Under the pieces are notes generated by a model, which searched no databases, had not been told where the DNA came from, and was given only the letters and a program-made list of their open reading frames with translations. Source: Thermosulfurimonas dismutans (GTDB lineage Bacteria; Desulfobacterota; Thermodesulfobacteria; Thermodesulfobacteriales; Thermodesulfobacteriaceae). From it: a stretch of 64,000 bases of DNA. Shown one piece after another: positions 26,706 through 61,348 of this stretch. Every line of letters begins with the position of its first letter. Position 1 is the first letter of the stretch. Made by a program: the position numbers and the translations under genes. Location: positions 32,387 to 96,386 of the forward strand of contig DRMH01000012.1 of assembly GCA_011322625.1 (NCBI GenBank). The letters run 5' to 3'.

Positions 26706-26783
26706 GTTCTATGAATGTAACGGGAAAGGGGCCGAAGGCCAAACCCTGTGGGAGGGGGAAGGTCCTGTGTTAAAATAGACCTC

Positions 26784-29276
26784 GTGCCGCAGGCCCTGGA
26801 ACTTCCCTTCTATCCCGAGCCGCGGGGGATTGTTCAGGTTTCGGCCTCCGCCGGAGCCGGGAAGACCTATCGCCTGGCCCTTCATTACCTGCGCCTTCTA
26901 AAAAGTCTTTCTCCCCCCTCGGAAGCGGGACTTTCCGCGGTGGTGGCCCTGACCTTTACCAACCAGGCCGCGGCCGAGATGCGCGAACGCATCCTCACCT
27001 TTCTTAAGCACATGGCTCTTGCGACCTCCCTGGGGCGCAGACTCTCGATGGAGACCGGGCTTTCGCCGGCTGAGGCCGAGGCCTGGCTGGAGACCATCTT
27101 TTCCGCCTATCCCGCCTTCCAGGTTCGCACCATAGACAGCCTCATCTTTACCCTCATTCGGGGACTGGCCTGGGAGCTGGGCTTAAGACCCGATCTTTCC
27201 GCGGAGATCCGGGAAGAATTCTTCCTTAATCGGGCCTTCGATCGTCTCCTCCTGCGTCTGCGCTCGGACCCCCGGGTGAGGTCCCTTTTCGAGGAGGCCC
27301 TCCAGACCTTCCTGGAGATCGAGGAACGGGGGGGATTCAACCCCGAAAGACACTTCCGCCGGCGTATGGAGGAGCTTCACCGGCTTCTGCGCCGCCGGGG
27401 AGGCGGAGGAAACTGGTCTCCCCCGCCGGCCTTTGAGGATCTGGTCGCCCTGGAGGAGGATCTGCGGGAACGGGGACGCAGACTCTCGGAAAGACTTTTC
27501 GGGCAACTGAGGCTTCAGCCCCGATACCCCGGCTGGCCCGAGGCCCTGGCGGATCCTCCACGTTATTTCGACCGCGCGGTTTTCAGGAAGGATTCCGTCC
27601 GGCAACTGGTGAAGGGCCGTATCCGGGCGGATCTGGAGCCCCTGGAGGAGGAGTTTCGGACCCTCAGGGCCCGTCTGGAGGTCTATCTCAAGGCCAAAGC
27701 CCGGGCCGAGGTGGCCCCTTACGAAAGGCTTTTCCGGGAGATCCTGCGCGAACTCCTCCATATCCGGGAGGAGGAAGGGGTGCTTCAGGCCGGAAGCTGG
27801 ACCGATCTCCTGGCCGAGCACGCCCGGGGACTCCTTCCCCTCATCTACCTGAAACTGGGTTCGCGTCTGCGACATTTTCTGCTGGATGAATTCCAGGACA
27901 CGGATCGCAAACAATGGGAGGCCCTGCGTCCCCTGGTGGAGGAGATCCTGGGAAGCGGGGGTTCGCTCTTTTATGTGGGGGATGTGAAACAGGCCATCTA
28001 TATGTGGCGCGGAGGGGATCCGGAACTTTTCTACGAGGTGCCCCGGAGTCTTCCGGCGGAACTCTCCGCAGAGATCCTCCCGGTGAACCGTCGTTCCGCA
28101 AGACGCATAGTCCTTTTCAATAACCTGCTTTTCTCGCGCCTACGCGAAAATCTGCCCCGGGTGGTCCGAAGGTTCCTTTACGGAGAACGCGAGCGAAGGG
28201 AATCCAGGGATTGCCCGATCTCTCAGGCGCTCACCCGGCGTCTTTCCGGGGTGTATCAGGCCGTGGAACAGGAGGTGCTTCCCGAAGCCCCGGAAGGGCG
28301 GGTGGAGTTTATCCGGGTCCCTTCGGACGAGGATCGGGAGGTCTTTCGTCAGGGGGTTTTCCGGGTCCTTGCGGAGATCATGCCCCGGCTCTATCAGGCG
28401 TATGTGGAGAAGGGGCGGAGCGTGGCCCTTCTGGTGCGGGAGAACCAGGAGGCCGAGGAACTGGCTACCTTTCTCTTCGGCCTGGGGATTCCTGCGGTCA
28501 CCGAACGGGCCCTGCGGCTCGAAAATTCGCCCCTGGTAAAGGGTCTCCTTTCCCTGCTCAAATACCTGGACTATCCCGCGGACGAGACCGCTCTGGCCGG
28601 TTTTCTGGCCAGTCCGTTTACCTCTCAGGGGGCGGAGATCCTAAGGGATTACTTTCGGGAGGGGAAAAGCCTGGAGGAGTTTCTGGCCCTGCGGGCCCCG
28701 GGGATCCTGAACCGGCTTCGGCGTCTCTCGGAACTTCACGAAAGAGGAATATCCATCTACGAACTGGTCCAGGAGATCCTCCGGGAATTCGGTCTTCGCG
28801 AACGTTTTCCCGAAGAGGAGCTTTATCTGATGCGTTTTCTTTCCACGGTCCTCTCTTATGAGGAGGAGGTTCTGGGGCTTTCGGATTTCCTGGCCCGCTG
28901 GGAGGAATCCGGCGGGGAGGAAAAGATCGGGCTTCCGCGCGAGCTTCAGGCCGTAAGGGTGTTTACCATTCATGCCTCTAAAGGGCTTGAATTCGACGCC
29001 GTGGTGATCCCTTTTCTCACTTGGGGGCCGAAAGGACGGGGAGAGGTGGTCCTTACCGACTGGGGGCTCATCCGGGCCCGAAGGGACTCGGCCGAGGAGG
29101 TGGCTCGCGCCCGGCTCGAGGAGAAGGCCCGGGAGGTCTTCGAGAGCCTGAACCTCCTTTATGTGGCTCTGACCCGTCCCCGCGAGGCCCTATATATTTT
29201 GCTTCCGGAAAAGACCCGCTACTACACCGTGGCCTCGGTCCTCCACGACCTCGGGGCCGAGAATCTTCTAGCCTGA
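26784..29276 (+). CDS. UvrD/AddA-type helicase lacking the C-terminal nuclease domain
   Basis: VQVSASAGAGKTYRLALHYLRLL (Walker A), VALTFTNQAAAEMRERIL, LLDEFQDTDRKQWEAL, VFTIHASKGLEFDAVVIP, LNLLYVALTRPREALYIL; stops directly after motif VI region. Confidence 0.88.
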   Translation: MPQALELPFYPEPRGIVQVSASAGAGKTYRLALHYLRLLKSLSPPSEAGLSAVVALTFTNQAAAEMRERILTFLKHMALATSLGRRLSMETGLSPAEAEAWLETIFSAYPAFQVRTIDSLIFTLIRGLAWELGLRPDLSAEIREEFFLNRAFDRLLLRLRSDPRVRSLFEEALQTFLEIEERGGFNPERHFRRRMEELHRLLRRRGGGGNWSPPPAFEDLVALEEDLRERGRRLSERLFGQLRLQPRYPGWPEALADPPRYFDRAVFRKDSVRQLVKGRIRADLEPLEEEFRTLRARLEVYLKAKARAEVAPYERLFREILRELLHIREEEGVLQAGSWTDLLAEHARGLLPLIYLKLGSRLRHFLLDEFQDTDRKQWEALRPLVEEILGSGGSLFYVGDVKQAIYMWRGGDPELFYEVPRSLPAELSAEILPVNRRSARRIVLFNNLLFSRLRENLPRVVRRFLYGERERRESRDCPISQALTRRLSGVYQAVEQEVLPEAPEGRVEFIRVPSDEDREVFRQGVFRVLAEIMPRLYQAYVEKGRSVALLVRENQEAEELATFLFGLGIPAVTERALRLENSPLVKGLLSLLKYLDYPADETALAGFLASPFTSQGAEILRDYFREGKSLEEFLALRAPGILNRLRRLSELHERGISIYELVQEILREFGLRERFPEEELYLMRFLSTVLSYEEEVLGLSDFLARWEESGGEEKIGLPRELQAVRVFTIHASKGLEFDAVVIPFLTWGPKGRGEVVLTDWGLIRARRDSAEEVARARLEEKAREVFESLNLLYVALTRPREALYILLPEKTRYYTVASVLHDLGAENLLA

Positions 29277-29396
29277 GGTTACTCCCCTCTCTCGGATACC
29301 CGCGCCCCGGGCTTCCGGAGATCTCCGTGTCGGGGGTTCGTTAGTAAATAACCGGGCGGGCGGAGGCGGGGTTCCGGAGGTAAAATAGGCCCCAGG

Positions 29397-29927
29397 ATGA
29401 GGCTCAGGATCTATCAGCAAAAGAGGGCCCTTGCCCTTCTCGGGGAAAGGGACGAGGAGCGGCAGCTCGGAGAGATGGCCCACCTGGCCCTCTATTTCCT
29501 GGAGGACTATGACGGAACCCCGGGGAGGATCGAAGAGGCCGTGTCCCGGGCCCTGGCCCTTTACACCGAACCCCTCCCGGAAAGGGAGAAATTTCGAAAA
29601 AGGCTCCTTGAGGTCCTTACGCGGGCCCTTTCCCATCCGGAGATCGCCCGCTTTTTTGCCCCGGGGATCCCGGACCTGAGGGAGCATCCCTTCGTCCGGC
29701 ATAAGGGGCGCGGCGGGGAACCCGAGGTCCACCGTCCGGATCGGGTGCTTCTCCTCCCCGAGGGGCCGGTGGTCCTGGAGTACAAGCTTCACCGGCCGGA
29801 GGACCCGGGCGAACACGAAAGACAGGTAAGGGAGTATCTCTCCGGGCTTTCCCTGGTGCTTAAGCAACCGGTTCGGGGATGTCTGGTCTATCTCGAGCCC
29901 CCGGAGGTGAGGGAGGTGCGTCCCTGA
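29397..29927 (+). CDS. Stand-alone PD-(D/E)XK nuclease module (AddA/RecB C-terminal-like)
   Basis: HRPDRVLLLPEGPVVLEYKLHR matches the D..(D/E)xK nuclease core; position between AddA-like helicase and AddB-like gene. Confidence 0.7.
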   Translation: MRLRIYQQKRALALLGERDEERQLGEMAHLALYFLEDYDGTPGRIEEAVSRALALYTEPLPEREKFRKRLLEVLTRALSHPEIARFFAPGIPDLREHPFVRHKGRGGEPEVHRPDRVLLLPEGPVVLEYKLHRPEDPGEHERQVREYLSGLSLVLKQPVRGCLVYLEPPEVREVRP

Positions 29928-32767
29928 TGTCCGGGAAGGCCTGGATCATACCCCCCCAGGCGGGTTTCCTTCCCACCCTCAGCCGGGAAATCCTCCGCCG
30001 ACACCGCGAGGATCTCTCCCGGGTCACCGTGATCTTTCCCACCCGCCGGGCGGCCCATTTCTTTCGCTATTACCTGGGTCGGCACCTGCGAGGTTCTTTT
30101 TTCCTGCCCCGGATCTATGCCTTTTCCGACTGGGTGAATGAACTTGCCGTGCGCCTGGATCCCCGGCCGATCATTCCGCCGGCGGAAAGGGCCTGGTGGC
30201 TCTACCGGGTCGTTTCCGGCCGACCGGGGTTCGAACAGGTCACGGAGAGCTTCGACCGGTTTCTTCCCTGGGGACTTAGGTTCTCCGAGGTGCTGGAGGA
30301 ATTCGAACGGGAGGCCGTACCCCTTAAGGATCTTCTGGAACCCCCGGAGGATCTCCCCCCGCACGGACAGGCCTTTCTTTCCGCCCTTTCGGAGATCGGA
30401 AGGGACTTTCGGGAGATCCTTTCCGGTGCCGGGGTCACCACACCCGCGGCCCGACTGAGGCTTCTTTCCGAAAGGCTCCCGGAGGTCTTTTCCCCGGAGG
30501 GGCCGGTGTATCTCTGCGGTTTTGCCGCCCTTTCCCGGGCCGAAAGGTTCCTTTTCCGGCGACTTCTGGAACTGGGAGCGGAGGTCTTCCTGGAGATGGA
30601 CCCCGGGTGCCGGGCCCCGGATTTCCTGGCCGAGGTCTTAAGGGACCTCAAACTCTCCCCGGAGATCCTCTCCCGCCCCCGTTCCCGGAGACCCCGGCTG
30701 CGCTTCTTTGCCGCCGCCGATGTACATCAGGAGGTGCGGGAGGCCGCCCGGCTCCTTCCCCCGGATCCCGAGACCCCGGATGAGGTCCTGATCCTCTTGC
30801 CCGTGGCCGGACATCTCCTACCCCTGCTTTATACCCTCCCCGAGGACCTTCCGGTGAACATTACCCTGGGATTTCCGGTAAAACGCTCCCTTCCGGCCAC
30901 CTTTCTCCTTCTTCTGTTTGAGCTTTACGAGAAGCGTCTTTCGGAACGTTATCCGGTACTTACCTATCTCTCCCTGCTCAAACATCCCTATGCCCGGGGG
31001 GTTCTCGGGGCCTGGGCGGCGGAACTTCATGCCTTCGAGACCCGACTCCGGGCCCACGGAAGCCCCTATCTGAGCCTTTCCGAGATCGAGGATCTGGCCG
31101 GGGGAGTGGATCCCCTGCGGCGTTTCCACCGGGAATTCCTGGAGGTCTTTTACGGGGTAAAGACCCCCCGGGACTTCGCCCGGGTGCTTAAGGAGATCCT
31201 GCACCGAGTCCTTGAACCCCATCGGGAAAGACTCCGTGAGGCCCGGGAGAACCGCGAGATCCTGGCCCGGCACTTCCTCTACGCCTTTGAGACGGAGATC
31301 CTTCCGGTCTTTGAGAGCTCATCCTTTTCCGGAGAGCCCATGCCCCTGGAGGGTCTCTTTCGCATGTTCCGGGAATTACTCCAGACGGTTTCGGCCCCCT
31401 TCGAGGGGGATCCCCTGTGCGGGGTCCAGGTCATGGGGTTGCTCGAGACCCGGCTTCTTTCCTTCCGAAAGGTGATCGTGCTCGATGCCAACGAGGGGGC
31501 GCTTCCCTCGCCGGAGGAGATCAATCCGCTCCTTCCCGAGGGGCTGCGCCCGGCCCTTTCCCTTCCCCGGCGTTCGCGCCAGGAGGCCCTGGAACGGTAT
31601 TATTTCGACCGTTTGATAGCTTCCGCCAGAGAGGTGGAAATTTTCTATCTTTCGGTAACCGAATCCTCCTCGCGTCTTCCTCCCCGGGTGCGGAGCCGTT
31701 ATGTGGAAGCCCTCCTTTGGGCGGAGGAAAAAAGGAAGGGAGAACTCTTTACCCCGGGAAAGGGGCCGGTGCGGCATCTGAGTTTATCTCTCACGGCTCC
31801 GGAGCCCTTTCCGGGTATCCCCCGGGGAGAGGCCGAACGCAGGGAGGTGGAAAGACTCCTTTCCGGGGAAATAAGCGCCACCCTGCTTGAGACCTATCTG
31901 GATTGCCCGGCCCGTTTCTATTTTCGCTATCTCCTGGGGCTAAAACCCCCGGAACGCCTAACCGAATACGACGCCACCGCTCTGGGGACCCTCATTCACG
32001 CCGTGCTCGAGGATTACTTTCGTCCCTATCTGGGCAGGGAATATCTGCCCCGGGAACACAACGATCCTTCCCGTTTGTTGACCCTGTTTCGGGAGCGCTT
32101 CGAGAGGGACGGTCTCTCCCGTCAGCTGGGGCCGGAACGACGCTTTTTCGTGGAAAAGACCGCGGAATTCCGTCTGCGACGTTATCTCCAGAGCCTGGAG
32201 GCCCTTCCTCCCTTTCGTATCCTTTCCTTGGAGGAAGAGAAACGGCGCGAACACCCGGGGCTGGGCCTGCGCTTTCGGGGAAAGCTCGACCGGGTGGATG
32301 AGTTCGAAACCGGCCGGGTGGTGCTGGATTATAAGACCGGGGCCGGGGTGCGTTCCCTGAGCCTGAGACGCCTGCGGGAGATTCTGGAGGAGGCCAGGGA
32401 TATTCCCCGGGTTGAACCCACCCTGGAGGGGCTTCGCTTCCTGCGCGACCGCCTGCCGGATCTCCAGCTCCTTCTTTACCTCTTCCTGCGTCCCGAGGCC
32501 GGCGAGGCGGTTTATGTTCAGCTGGCAAGCGGCAAAGGGCGCGAGATCTTTAAGCCCCTCTTTTACCGTCCCCCCTTCAGTCCGCGTTCCGGAGATTTCC
32601 TGCGCGAGGAGGAGATCGAATACCTCAGGGAACGGGTCTTTCCCGCGCTCCTGGAGCGTCTGATCGAACACCTGCTTGCGGCGCCTTACTTTTTCATTCC
32701 GGAAAAGCCTCCGGGCTGTCGCTGGTGCGATTACCTTTATGCCTGCCCGGGAAGAAAACGGGCCTAG
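29927..32767 (+). CDS. AddB-like helicase-nuclease subunit with C-terminal PD-(D/E)XK and Fe-S cysteine cluster
   Basis: VTVIFPTRRAAHFFRYYLG; YLDCPARFYFRYLLGL; FRGKLDRVDEF..RVVLDYKTG; CRWCDYLYACPG (four-Cys Fe-S pattern). Confidence 0.88.
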   Translation: MSGKAWIIPPQAGFLPTLSREILRRHREDLSRVTVIFPTRRAAHFFRYYLGRHLRGSFFLPRIYAFSDWVNELAVRLDPRPIIPPAERAWWLYRVVSGRPGFEQVTESFDRFLPWGLRFSEVLEEFEREAVPLKDLLEPPEDLPPHGQAFLSALSEIGRDFREILSGAGVTTPAARLRLLSERLPEVFSPEGPVYLCGFAALSRAERFLFRRLLELGAEVFLEMDPGCRAPDFLAEVLRDLKLSPEILSRPRSRRPRLRFFAAADVHQEVREAARLLPPDPETPDEVLILLPVAGHLLPLLYTLPEDLPVNITLGFPVKRSLPATFLLLLFELYEKRLSERYPVLTYLSLLKHPYARGVLGAWAAELHAFETRLRAHGSPYLSLSEIEDLAGGVDPLRRFHREFLEVFYGVKTPRDFARVLKEILHRVLEPHRERLREARENREILARHFLYAFETEILPVFESSSFSGEPMPLEGLFRMFRELLQTVSAPFEGDPLCGVQVMGLLETRLLSFRKVIVLDANEGALPSPEEINPLLPEGLRPALSLPRRSRQEALERYYFDRLIASAREVEIFYLSVTESSSRLPPRVRSRYVEALLWAEEKRKGELFTPGKGPVRHLSLSLTAPEPFPGIPRGEAERREVERLLSGEISATLLETYLDCPARFYFRYLLGLKPPERLTEYDATALGTLIHAVLEDYFRPYLGREYLPREHNDPSRLLTLFRERFERDGLSRQLGPERRFFVEKTAEFRLRRYLQSLEALPPFRILSLEEEKRREHPGLGLRFRGKLDRVDEFETGRVVLDYKTGAGVRSLSLRRLREILEEARDIPRVEPTLEGLRFLRDRLPDLQLLLYLFLRPEAGEAVYVQLASGKGREIFKPLFYRPPFSPRSGDFLREEEIEYLRERVFPALLERLIEHLLAAPYFFIPEKPPGCRWCDYLYACPGRKRA

Positions 32768-57100: not shown

Positions 57101-57224
57101 GATCGGGTATGGCATCCAGAGGCACCCTCTTCAGGGCCCAGAGAGAGGCGGTGAGAAGAAAGGCGGTGAGGATGAGGACCAGAAAAGGATTTCGCCCGGA
57201 GACCTCAATGATGCGCGTGATCAC
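54129..57224 (-). CDS. cusA: CusA/CzcA-family heavy-metal efflux RND permease
   Basis: VPLDAIPDLSDVQVILVAEWPGASPDLMEDQVTYPLVSALVSVPRVKTVRGYSYFGQAFIYILF; GVKIVTTYDRSDLI; MTVMTTIVGLLPLLWSRGTGADVMRRIAAPMIGGLVTSTLVTLFLIPVLYEW. Confidence 0.95.
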   Translation of the reverse strand: MITRIIEVSGRNPFLVLILTAFLLTASLWALKRVPLDAIPDLSDVQVILVAEWPGASPDLMEDQVTYPLVSALVSVPRVKTVRGYSYFGQAFIYILFQDGTDLYWARSRVLEYLDRVKGSLPSEVRVTLGPDATGVGWVFEYALVDESGRHDLAELRSFQDFYLKYWLEAVPGVAEVASVGGYVKEYQILLDPVKLYAHGLSLPQIVRAVRQSNREVGGRILEISGREFFIRGRGYVRSLTDLQNIVVADDPRTGTPIRLKDVAEVRLGAALRRGAAELDGKGEVVGGIVVMRYGENALNVIRRVKERLKEIEPALPPGVKIVTTYDRSDLILRAIHTLKKTLLEEMVVVSLVILIFLLHPPSALVAVIVLPVAVALSFLPMYWLRITANIMSLGGIAIAIGAMVDAVIVLVENAHKHLEHESGARREIILRAAREVGPPIFFSLLVITLSFLPVFALQAQEGRLFKPLAFTKTFSMFFAALLSITLAPALMSWFVRRGISEEKNPISRLLIALYRPALKLALRFKWAVLGASLVALLLTVPLWSRLGSEFMPPLNEGSILYMPTTLPGISITEAVRVLQIQDRLIRSFPEVKRVFGKVGRAETATDPAPLSMVETTILLKPRRQWRPGMTWEKLISELDQRVRLPGWTNSWTMPIKARIDMLTTGIRTPIGIKIYGKDLGQIQRIGEELEALLRNLPGTRSVYAERTFGGYYVDLIPDRWACARYGLNVGEVLQRIRTAVGGTIVSYTVEGRERYPILVRYAREFRETPEDLERILIKTPSGAMVPLKNLVKIRAIGGPPMIKDENGFRVGYVYVDVAGRDVGSYVQEARRLVRERLKLPPGYFLEWSGQYLFMERVKRRLSLLIPLTVFFIYFLLYLHFRNFMEVTLIMLSLPFALVGSIWLLYLLSYHLSVAVGVGMIALAGVAAETGVVMLVYLDVARKKRLESGKLRHPADLREAVIEGAVLRLRPKVMTVMTTIVGLLPLLWSRGTGADVMRRIAAPMIGGLVTSTLVTLFLIPVLYEWWQGRKI

Positions 57225-58440
57225 CTTGGCTGCCTCCGAAACTCTTCAGGGCCGCTTTAAGCCTGGATTCGGCATCGATCAGGAAATTGGCCGAAACCAC
57301 CACCTCTTCCCCGGGGTGCAGACCGGAAAGAACGATCCGCTCATGTCCCACCCGGCGTCCCACCCTTACCATGCGGGGTTCGAAGGTCCCCGGACCCTTG
57401 CGCACGAAGACGTAATAGTGCCGCCCTCCGTAGATGAGGGCCTCGTCGGGGATGACCATCCGCATCCCCAGCGGGACCCGCACCCGCACCTCGGCCCAGG
57501 CCCCGGGACGGAGGACCATTCGGGGGTTGGCCAGGCTCAGGCGCACCCGGAAGACCCGGAGTTTTTCCTCCACCCAGGGATAAATTTCCTCGATGCGGGC
57601 CCGGAATTTATGCTCGGTACCCGGAACGAGTATCTCCACCGGCAGGCCCACCCGTAAGAGAGGGGCCTCGGTTTCGTAAAAATCGGCCTCTATCCAGACC
57701 CGGGAAAGGTCCGCCAGACGGTAAAGGACCGAGGCCGGGGTAATGCGTTTACCGGGAAAGATCCTCTTTTCCACCACGAAACCGGATACCGGACTGGGCA
57801 CAGGAAAGGCCCGGACCGGTCTCCCGGTGGAGCGGATTTGCTGCAGGGTTTGCCGGGAGAGCCCCCAAAGAAGAAGCCGTTCCTCCGCGGCCCGGGCCGT
57901 CCTGCGGGCCAGAGCCAGGGCTCCGGAGGCCCCCTGACGTTTGAGATCCCGGGCCCAGGTGAGGGAACGCAGGAATTCCTCCTCGGTGGAGAGCACCTCC
58001 GGGGAATACAGGGTGAAGAGCGGAGTGCCCTTTTTTACCCAAATCCCTTCCTGATCTACATATACCCTTTCCACCCATCCCGAAACCCGGGTATGGACTT
58101 CGTAGATCCGGGTCTCGTCGTAGGTCACGCGGGCCGGAGCCCGAAGCTCCAGGACCACCCTGCGGTGGACCACCGGAGCGGTGCGCACCCCGATGAGCTG
58201 CTGTCTTTCCGGGGAAATCTGAACCGGGACCAGACCCATGCCCCGGGAGGAAGGGGCAGGTTGGCGGGGCCGGGCGGTGGCCTCCTTTACCGGCACCAGA
58301 TCCATGCCACAGATGGGACATTTTCCCGGGTGATCGGAGCGGTAGCTGGGATGCATGGGACAGGTATAGATGGTCTTGGCTGAGACATTAAAGGCCGCCG
58401 GGCCGAGGAAAAGCCATCCGGCTAGAAACAGGGCCGCCAT
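57205..58440 (-). CDS. cusB: CusB-family efflux RND periplasmic adaptor with N-terminal heavy-metal-binding domain
   Basis: YTCPMHPSYRSDHPGKCPICGMDLVPV heavy-metal-binding domain; HlyD-type adaptor VHTRVSGWVERVYVDQEGIWVKKGTPLFTLYSPEVLS. Confidence 0.92.
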   Translation of the reverse strand: MAALFLAGWLFLGPAAFNVSAKTIYTCPMHPSYRSDHPGKCPICGMDLVPVKEATARPRQPAPSSRGMGLVPVQISPERQQLIGVRTAPVVHRRVVLELRAPARVTYDETRIYEVHTRVSGWVERVYVDQEGIWVKKGTPLFTLYSPEVLSTEEEFLRSLTWARDLKRQGASGALALARRTARAAEERLLLWGLSRQTLQQIRSTGRPVRAFPVPSPVSGFVVEKRIFPGKRITPASVLYRLADLSRVWIEADFYETEAPLLRVGLPVEILVPGTEHKFRARIEEIYPWVEEKLRVFRVRLSLANPRMVLRPGAWAEVRVRVPLGMRMVIPDEALIYGGRHYYVFVRKGPGTFEPRMVRVGRRVGHERIVLSGLHPGEEVVVSANFLIDAESRLKAALKSFGGSQGDHAHH

Positions 58441-58442
58441 CC

Positions 58443-61232
58443 TCACGGGATACCTCCTTGAGGCCCGGGGAGTTCCGGGACCAGGGTCCTCCCCAGAAGG
58501 GCCTGGATTCCGGCCAGGGCCGCCAGATAATTGACCCGATGCCGACACAGGGATAAACGGTGTTCCAGGAGCCGTCGAGCCCGCTCCAGGACGTTCAGAA
58601 AATCCAGTTTCCCGGTGAGATAATAAGTTCGGGCTGAATCCAGATCGGCCTGATCCTGCGGAAGGATCTCTTTTTCGTAGAGGCGAACGAGTTCGGCCTC
58701 GGTTCGAGCCTGATAGAGGAACCCCTGCAGGCGATAGCGCAGATCGGCCTTTACATCCTCCAGGTTTTCTCCGGCCGCCAGGGCCTCGTCCTTTTCGGCC
58801 CGGGCCAGAAGATCCTGTTTGCGGGAGATGAAGAGGGGGATGCTTATCCCGGCCCCGAATTCGTAAATCTCCGGGTAAGTCCCCCGGGAGTACCAGCCGG
58901 CGAAGAATTTGGGGTCCGGACGTTTTTCCAGTTCCGCCAGATGGGCCCGAAGCTCCCTCTCCCGAAGGTAGAGACGATAAAGGACTACCCGGGGAGCCTG
59001 TTCCAGAAAGGCGCTCAGGCGTTTTTCCTCGGGAAGGGAGGGAAGCCCGGCTGGAAGCTCAAGCTTCGGAAGCCGGGATACCCGGGTGAAAAGCAACCTT
59101 CGACTCAGACGCTCCCGGAGTACCTTCTGTCTTTCCAGATTGCGGGCCACTCTTTCCCTGAGGAGCCCCCTTTCCACCGCGGCCCGCAGGATATCGGCCT
59201 GGATCCCGGCTCCGGTCTGATATCTGGAACGGGCACTCTCTTCCAGTTCCCGCAGGATGCCGTCCATTTCCCGCAGGATCGCGGCCTCGCGTTCCAGATA
59301 GACGATCTCCAGAGCGCTTCGAACCAGATCCCGCCAGAGCTCCCAGCTCTTTTCCTCCCACTTAAGGCGCAGTTCCTGAGCCTTGAGGGCGGCTATCCTT
59401 TCCCGGGTCTTCCTCTTGCCCTTCCAGGGGACGGTCTGTTCGATCTTGATTCCGGCCATACTCATGGGTTCCTCGCCCAGGGTATTGGCCGGAACGGGAT
59501 CTCCGGCGTTACGGACCATGAAGGTAACCCGCGGGTCGGGCAGGGCTCCGGCCGGGGCGATGCGGTTTTCCTGGGCGCGGATCCGGGCCCGCAGGGCCGA
59601 AAGCACGGGATGATTCCGGAGAAGGAGCGGGGTTTGAAGCCGAAGAAAGTCGCGCAGGCTTTCCGCCCCGGCGGGAAGGACCAGCAGGAAAAGGAGCAGG
59701 AGGGCAAAGAGCCCCTGTTGCACGGCCCGGCGAGGGCGGGAGCCCTTCTCCGTGGTTAGCGGAAGGTGGCGGAGCCAGGGACATATCCGGCCCGGGAGGC
59801 GTTTTCCGAAAAGGGTCCTCTTGCCGGAGGCGGTGAAGAAAAACCTCCCTTTCGCCCGGGTAAGGGCCACGTAGAGCAGACGTTTCTCCTCCGCCGGATC
59901 CGCATCCGGAAATAGATTTAAGGGGAGAAGCCCCTCCTCGGCTCCCACCAGGATCACCGCCTCGGCCTCCAGTCCTTTGGCGCCATGGATGGTGAGGAGA
60001 TTTACCCCCTCCCGGGAAACGGAGATTAGATCCGCGGTGGAAAGAAACCTCAGCCTGGCGGCCAGTCGCTCCCTTTCTTCCCCGGAGAGGAGGTCCGAAA
60101 GGGAGGGCACCAGTTGGCGAACCTCTCGGCGTACCTCCTCCGGGGTGAGGGACCCTGCGGCGAGACCATCGGCGAGCCGGAGCAATTTCTGACGTCTTTC
60201 CTCGGCCTCGACCTCGGGTTCGGCTACCGGAAGCCCCTCCCGGAGCAGGGTCTCCTTCACCGGAGAGAGAACCGCCCGCAGCCTTGCCAGCACCAGGATC
60301 TCGTCCGGGGAGAGCCCCTCCCCGGCCCTTTCCAGATAGACTCCGCCGGTCAACTCCGCCACCAGTTTGGCCACACCTATGGCCTCGGCCTTTTCGGAGG
60401 GAAAGAGCCACCCCCGGATTTCTCCCCCGGAGCGGACCGCCTTAAGGGAGGCGGATCCGGAGAAGAGATCCTCCCGCAGGGATTCGGCCGTAGCCAGGAT
60501 CCTTTCCGGGACCCGGTAGGAGAGGGCCAGGGTATGGATGCTCAGGCCGGCTAACCCCTCAAGAAAGGTCTTGAGGGCCCGGGGATCGGCGCCGCGGAAA
60601 CCATAGATGGCCTGAGCAGGGTCTCCTACCAGGAAGAACCCCCCGGCCGGGAAAAGGGAGAGGAAACGGAAGATCTCCGGGGAGAGGTCCTGACATTCGT
60701 CGATGAGGACCTGATAGCCCGGGGGAAAAGGGGGCCTTTTTTCGGGCACCGCGAGGAGGAGCCGCAGGTAGTCGTAAAGATCGTTTGCGGAAAGGTAATC
60801 CAGATAGGCCTTGCGGAGGGAGGAATAGGCCGGGTGTCCGGAACGAACGGCCTCAAGAAGCTTGCGCGGAGATCCCGAAATTTTGAGCTTTCGGGCCAGA
60901 CGCTGGATCAGGTCCGTGGCCTCTTCCTCGGAAAGAAGCCGGGGCGGGGCGTCTGCGGCTTCATAAAGGAGGTCATAAGCCAGGGAATGAAAGGTCTCCA
61001 CGCGGGGCCCCGAGATTCCCAGGGCGGAGAGACGTTCGCGCAGCTCCCGGCAGGTCTTTACGGTAAAGGTGAGAAGAAAGATCCTTTCCGGAGGAACCCC
61101 CCGCCCCAGGAGATGAAGGACCCGGGCCAGGAGGAGGCGGGTTTTTCCGGCACCGGGGCCGGCTATCACCATGGCCGGCCCCGGGGTTTCGGCAGCCCTC
61201 TTCTGGAACTCGTCTAAAGGGAAACCCTTCAT
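58443..61232 (-). CDS. Continuous ORF: N-terminal UvrD-like helicase (about 61232-59724) joined in frame to a TolC/CusC-like outer-membrane efflux protein (about 59723-58443)
   Basis: Helicase motifs GPGAGKTRLLLARVLHLL, VLIDECQDLSPEIFRFL, LLTIHGAKGLEAEAVILVG, LYVALTRAKGRFFFT; then QGLFALLLLFLLVLPAGAESL signal peptide and outer-membrane efflux protein sequence. An in-frame GTG at 59723 could start the TolC-like protein separately. Confidence 0.8.
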   Translation of the reverse strand: MKGFPLDEFQKRAAETPGPAMVIAGPGAGKTRLLLARVLHLLGRGVPPERIFLLTFTVKTCRELRERLSALGISGPRVETFHSLAYDLLYEAADAPPRLLSEEEATDLIQRLARKLKISGSPRKLLEAVRSGHPAYSSLRKAYLDYLSANDLYDYLRLLLAVPEKRPPFPPGYQVLIDECQDLSPEIFRFLSLFPAGGFFLVGDPAQAIYGFRGADPRALKTFLEGLAGLSIHTLALSYRVPERILATAESLREDLFSGSASLKAVRSGGEIRGWLFPSEKAEAIGVAKLVAELTGGVYLERAGEGLSPDEILVLARLRAVLSPVKETLLREGLPVAEPEVEAEERRQKLLRLADGLAAGSLTPEEVRREVRQLVPSLSDLLSGEERERLAARLRFLSTADLISVSREGVNLLTIHGAKGLEAEAVILVGAEEGLLPLNLFPDADPAEEKRLLYVALTRAKGRFFFTASGKRTLFGKRLPGRICPWLRHLPLTTEKGSRPRRAVQQGLFALLLLFLLVLPAGAESLRDFLRLQTPLLLRNHPVLSALRARIRAQENRIAPAGALPDPRVTFMVRNAGDPVPANTLGEEPMSMAGIKIEQTVPWKGKRKTRERIAALKAQELRLKWEEKSWELWRDLVRSALEIVYLEREAAILREMDGILRELEESARSRYQTGAGIQADILRAAVERGLLRERVARNLERQKVLRERLSRRLLFTRVSRLPKLELPAGLPSLPEEKRLSAFLEQAPRVVLYRLYLRERELRAHLAELEKRPDPKFFAGWYSRGTYPEIYEFGAGISIPLFISRKQDLLARAEKDEALAAGENLEDVKADLRYRLQGFLYQARTEAELVRLYEKEILPQDQADLDSARTYYLTGKLDFLNVLERARRLLEHRLSLCRHRVNYLAALAGIQALLGRTLVPELPGPQGGIP

Positions 61233-61348
61233 GGAAATCTTTATAATCCCGCCCCCGGAGGGGAACAATATCCAATTAAAATTTCCTAAAACCTGGAAAA
61301 AATAGTCTAAACCTTGTTTCTGTAAACAGGCCTTATATACTTGGGCCC

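Follow-up and report, generated by a model that had tools for sequence, protein, structure and literature searches.

AddAB, RecBCD and the helicase–nuclease linker

In AddAB enzymes, one motor unwinds the DNA and two nucleases share the products, one in AddA that cuts the 3′ strand and one in AddB that cuts the 5′ strand. When Chi is bound, the 3′ strand is held away from the AddA nuclease. AddA and RecB are single chains elsewhere, and the coupling of helicase to nuclease in RecBCD and AddAB has been debated around the covalent linker. Crystal structures of AddAB place the AddA nuclease domain on a surface of AddB (PMC4824097). In RecBCD, the motor–nuclease linker blocks the active site until it is released (PMC5030088), and the nuclease can come off its docking site while a tether of about 60 residues holds it (PMC13101046).

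Here, we describe a locus in a 64,000-nt stretch of DNA (the window) from the heat-loving bacterium Thermosulfurimonas dismutans (Thermodesulfobacteria) in which AddA is encoded as two polypeptides. Very probably, the locus specifies an AddAB-type helicase–nuclease whose AddA was split by an ancient fission in the linker, such that an AddA helicase, a free AddA nuclease and AddB would form a heterotrimer; the three-subunit assembly, the assignment of strands and a Chi-type control are predictions from sequence. No description of a split AddA, of a three-subunit AddAB or of AddA in these genera was found in the open-access literature, a scope that leaves most subscription journals outside.

The three genes in the window

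All features of the locus lie on the + strand. The first gene (26784..29276) encodes the AddA helicase subunit, a UvrD/RecB-type SF1 protein of 830 aa counted from GTG 26784 (an alternative GTG start is at 26748). The protein matches the Pfam UvrD-helicase (3e-30) and UvrD_C domains as well as two NCBIfam models, the RecB-like helicase NF010485 (3e-76) and addA_alphas (8e-39), and a sequence search of the PDB matched RecB and AddA. The SF1 motor motifs of AddA are all present: Walker A (VSASAGAGKT, 26838..26867), Walker B, motif V and motif VI (LLYVALTR, 29154..29177). Motif VI is followed by 32 aa and there is no C-terminal nuclease domain, as the sequence-only reading had proposed when it placed the end of the helicase right past its last motif.

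The third gene (29927..32767) encodes an AddB-like subunit of 946 aa from ATG 29927, a start that overlaps the nuclease stop as TGATG and is likely to be used over an alternative ATG at 29879. AddB matches Pfam PDDEXK_1 (4e-33) and addB_alphas (3e-28). Judging by its motifs, the N-terminal part resembles an inactive helicase, and motif inspection found no Walker A; the C-terminal nuclease domain (31871..32749; Pfam and sequence motifs) contains D...DYK together with the Fe–S cysteines C...CxxC...C. AddB thereby appears to carry the full set of nuclease and Fe–S motifs, and both elements that had been claimed for it are there.

The small protein as an AddA nuclease domain

Between these two genes lies the gene of the detached AddA nuclease subunit (29397..29927), a protein of 176 aa with a PD-(D/E)XK fold. 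Its identity was addressed with a profile for which 20 nuclease domains of fused AddAs from the same phylum were the sole input. The window protein scored 84 bits against this profile and the 36 detached copies all scored 36–111 bits, compared with ≤24 bits for 42 AddBs. The last 60 positions of NF010485 match the protein at 3e-4, and Pfam PDDEXK_1 is matched by 12 of 16 members of the detached-nuclease family. The window nuclease taken alone gave no match or a marginal Cas4 match in Pfam, PHROGs and PADLOC, no separate helicase match in Pfam or NCBIfam, and no match by tblastn against plasmids. Because a sequence search of the PDB with the nuclease profile returned only designed helical repeats and marginal EndoMS/Cas4-like matches, the fold was compared instead. 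AlphaFold2, run on a 4-sequence alignment, gave a best model with pLDDT 80 and pTM 0.75 (the other four models, 51–59). In the PDB, this best model is closest to AddA from B. subtilis AddAB (4cei_A, E 3e-7, TM 0.63); next come the Cas4-family protein ACE1 and other AddA and AdnA chains.

The PD-(D/E)XK signature reported for this gene is real, and its residues are invariant across homologues. The features of an AddA-type nuclease (G...H, E, D, (E/D)xK, QxxxY) are all found, on a separate protein: the RecB/AddA-type motif GEMAH (G25...H29, 29469..29483), whose G and H never vary among 36 detached and 20 fused copies; the acidic residue E96 (29682..29684), conserved in 36/36 detached and 20/20 fused copies; the catalytic core RPDR...EYK (D115, E128, K130; 29733..29786), in which D115 and K130 are invariant and position 128 (E/D) is always acidic; and QVREY (Q143...Y147, 29823..29837), with Q in 35/36 and Y in 36/36 detached copies. 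Across the 36 detached and 20 fused copies, then, the sole departure from the catalytic residues is one Q-to-R change at Q143. Relative to the nearest relative (G002), dN/dS is 0.21 for the nuclease, 0.11 for the helicase and 0.07 for AddB, and the three genes are maintained intact under purifying selection throughout the order. The nuclease alignment has no invariant cysteine; membership in the Cas4 or solo Cas4 group was rejected on this ground, a four-Cys Fe–S cluster being the mark of that group, and because the Cas4 matches are only marginal. The 176-aa protein is the AddA nuclease domain.

The junction between helicase and nuclease genes

The gap between the two genes (29277..29396) is 120 nt long and has no full-length coding frame. 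The sequence-only reading had described stops in several frames and had argued against a simple frameshift; the argument stands, given that the junctions vary among relatives, but the description is refined, as one reading frame holds both ORFs, 40 codons apart, with two in-frame stops between them (TGA 29274 and TAA at about 29349). In G002, the gap is 109 nt and the frame relation is another one; in G003, the gap is 43 nt. Most other relatives have a start/stop overlap of 4 nt (ATGA or GTGA), which is 11 nt in the Thermodesulfatator-like family f3. Across species, the overlap is 4, 11 or 31 nt or absent, and the nuclease frame is 0, +1 or +2 relative to that of the helicase. Neither frameshift nor read-through explains the split, because junction lengths and frames differ among relatives.

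In an alignment with G002, little of the gap is conserved apart from an identical run of 33 nt (29360..29392) that precedes the nuclease start. This stretch contains GGAGG (29376–29380) and is probably a ribosome-binding region, possibly including a −10-like element. A sigma-70 scan of 29277–29396 found no promoter. The box TAAAATAG also lies within the stretch (29381–29388, 9–16 nt before the nuclease start, identical in G002) and recurs at 26771–26778, 6–13 nt before the helicase start; the window holds three copies, where 0.76 would be expected. Short-leader promoters might use the box as a −10-like element, and transcription of the nuclease–addB pair would then be uncoupled here.

A different junction involving a helicase was observed elsewhere in the window. 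One 941-aa open frame (58446–61268, − strand) joins a UvrD/PcrA-like helicase (residues 20–481) to a TolC/OEP-type outer-membrane efflux protein (550–928), and the adjoining gene (57208–58548) encodes a CusB-type RND adaptor. The fused frame crosses the junction (about residues 505–545) in six genomes of the Thermosulfurimonas group and in G008 (g4), with homologues at L126–L130 and L133, although contig ends truncate it in two drafts; G007 and more distant relatives match only as far as a stop codon near the helicase C-terminus. The helicase tail QxGLF runs directly into a stretch resembling a signal peptide (ALLLLFLLVLPAGA/ES). No start codon is conserved at the junction, and in several genomes no usable frame offers an ATG, GTG or TTG near it. 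The frame may have arisen as a fusion by stop loss, or it may encode a polyprotein that signal peptidase cleaves.

Distribution and gene layouts

Relatives were surveyed by genome-wide searches with the nuclease alignment and AddB, together with inspection of fetched loci; the survey covered the phylum of the window, and the distribution is therefore a lower bound. All three proteins were found in 32 of 36 genomes of the order and the fused form in none. The exceptions are G006 (helicase only), G034 (AddB only; 83% complete) and G030 and G033 (none of the three). The nuclease of G010 and G019 fell below threshold genome-wide and was found beside addB by profiles run on the fetched loci. A separate nuclease ORF was present in 15/15 relatives among the neighborhoods first examined in which the nuclease was found, and the helicase open frame is about 755–910 aa, too short to hold a nuclease domain, in nearly all genomes of the same genus, family and order (in G001, the 956-aa frame is extended upstream of the alignment, and the short values reflect contig ends). 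In every genome of the order that bears the system, helicase and nuclease are on separate polypeptides, and no separate fused AddA or RecB was found in G000. In the same phylum, AddA of families f10, f15, f27, f40, f42, f50, f56, f57, f73 and f85 is fused, at about 900–1220 aa, with a C-terminal nuclease. The split form has been retained across one order and several further families.

Gene order in the relatives, which had been suggested as a check, shows that the split is kept in three layouts. Helicase, nuclease and addB are clustered in that order in the genus of the window, g3, g4, f2, f13, f31 and f39 (on the f82 contig, only helicase and nuclease were seen); helicase and nuclease are together with addB elsewhere in the Thermodesulfatator-like f3; and nuclease and addB are together, hundreds of kb from the helicase, in g5 and g6 (putative Thermodesulfobacterium/Caldimicrobium). 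For instance, in T. geofontis OPF15 (G014), whose chromosome of 1,634,377 bp is finished (PMC3624685), the helicase is at 175–177 kb and the nuclease–addB pair at 509–512 kb, about 330 kb apart. The nuclease gene always has at least one of its two partners, helicase and addB, as a neighbor, and no genome with both partners lacks it.

Two further genomes deviate from these layouts. G006, a 97% complete genome of the same family, has an AddA-type helicase (L123:1271-3745, − strand) without detectable nuclease or AddB, and this helicase forms a long branch in the helicase tree. The helicase can live without the other two subunits, as this helicase-only genome indicates, and solo use of the motor is possible there; this counts against the three-subunit reading. 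In G138 (f39), a divergent nuclease–addB pair (L085) does not have the helicase alongside, other f39 members having the three-gene cluster; the helicase gene may have become unlinked a second time, independently, in this genome.

Origin of the split and alternative explanations

In the helicase tree, one branch parts 32 detached from 20 fused rows (ultrafast bootstrap 73, SH-aLRT 87), and the dividing branch received an aLRT of 91 in a quick search with 53 rows. The helicase and nuclease trees are unrooted, and the fused state was taken as ancestral because AddA and RecB are single chains elsewhere. The distance from motif VI to GxxxH is 73–156 residues in the 11 fused AddAs measured; in the window, this region is represented by the 32-residue helicase tail and a 24-residue nuclease head, which places the putative fission site in the helicase–nuclease linker. 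The detached state requires a single change on the best helicase tree in both searches, in line with a single ancient fission at moderate support (73/87). Parallel fissions, by which the detached state would have arisen more than once, are a less probable history that still deserves some weight: the short nuclease-domain tree requires two changes and the helicase bootstrap trees one to two, although distant families have the start/stop overlap style in common and the best helicase tree needs only the one change.

Three other explanations were considered. A pseudogene or sequencing lesion interrupting a normal AddA in this strain or assembly would fit the shared frame of the two ORFs and the mere two stops between them, and an intact AddA in relatives had been named as the sign of it; instead, close relatives and all system-bearing genomes of the order are split. 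A lesion is ruled out, to near certainty, by the varied junctions of these relatives and by the unlinked layouts, including that of the finished T. geofontis chromosome (PMC3624685), and intact catalytic residues and low dN/dS speak against it as well. A programmed frameshift or stop read-through that yields a fused AddA from two ORFs would have a workable geometry in the many relatives where the ORFs overlap. Yet no one frame relation or overlap length is shared, and most junctions have a start codon at the overlap or close to it. In the window, translation would have to pass two stops and 40 mostly unconserved codons, and g5 and g6 have the genes unlinked; junction variety and unlinked layouts rule this mechanism out, and we give it hardly any credence. 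The remaining idea, that the small nuclease was recruited to another job (e.g., as a solo Cas4-like or RecE-like exonuclease) while the helicase–AddB pair works without it, draws on the weak similarity to Cas4, on the distance between nuclease and helicase genes in Thermodesulfobacterium and on the helicase-only G006. We consider it quite unlikely, as the nuclease groups with AddA nuclease domains and not with AddB, lacks the Fe–S cysteines of Cas4 and accompanies both partners everywhere, always next to one or both.

Comparison with known systems and a model for the split enzyme

By every feature examined at the sequence level except a single-chain AddA, the system would be classed as AddAB. 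As in AddAB (RexAB), with B. subtilis 3U4Q/4CEJ as reference, there is a UvrD/RecB-like motor with SF1 motifs, an AddA-type nuclease, a gene cluster and an AddB with an inactive helicase-like part, a nuclease domain and Fe–S cysteines; here, however, AddA is two polypeptides, and the linker is replaced by a tail and a head. The best family match for both halves is the Campylobacterota AddA (NF010485, RecB-like helicase, 909 aa), which is a single helicase–nuclease chain. RecBCD also consists of three gene products and has a RecB-type motor and nuclease domain homologous to the split products, but its third subunit is the RecD motor, whereas here the third is a nuclease; its RecC nuclease is inactive, whereas the DYK motif of AddB is intact and active-looking; and its RecB linker, which blocks and releases the nuclease (PMC5030088), has no covalent counterpart here. 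Assignment to RecBCD was rejected for want of a RecD motor subunit and because the AddB nuclease motif is intact. AdnAB is likewise an SF1 helicase–nuclease with two nucleases and gives a weaker fold match to the nuclease (6ppr_A), but AdnB has a second motor with Walker A; the absence of Walker A from AddB excludes assignment to this group.

In the model we propose, the helicase motor would translocate 3′–5′, and AddB would scan for Chi and cut the 5′ strand. The free nuclease would dock non-covalently on AddB at the exit of the 3′ strand and, once docked, cut the 3′-ended strand until Chi or an equivalent is met. The pairing of the nuclease gene with addB in g5 and g6 fits docking on the AddB surface. 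With no covalent linker, docking would have to take over the gating of nuclease activity that RecBCD achieves by its linker helix. A bolder proposal, on which we would not rely, is that the detached nuclease is an exchangeable subunit and that the nuclease switch is its binding to AddB ahead of Chi and its release, either once Chi has been met or, where its gene is unlinked, by separate expression; if true, regulation would differ both from linker-helix gating in RecBCD and from the fixed geometry of AddAB.

Implications

Annotation that relies on AddA models may overlook the system in these organisms or cut it short, because the small protein scores far below the cut-off of its family and, taken alone, matches nothing in Pfam. 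For the debate on helicase–nuclease coupling, a lineage that lives without the linker tether is a natural experiment: a free subunit may be supplied, left out or mutated to test directly whether Chi control is exerted by the linker or by a docking site on AddB.
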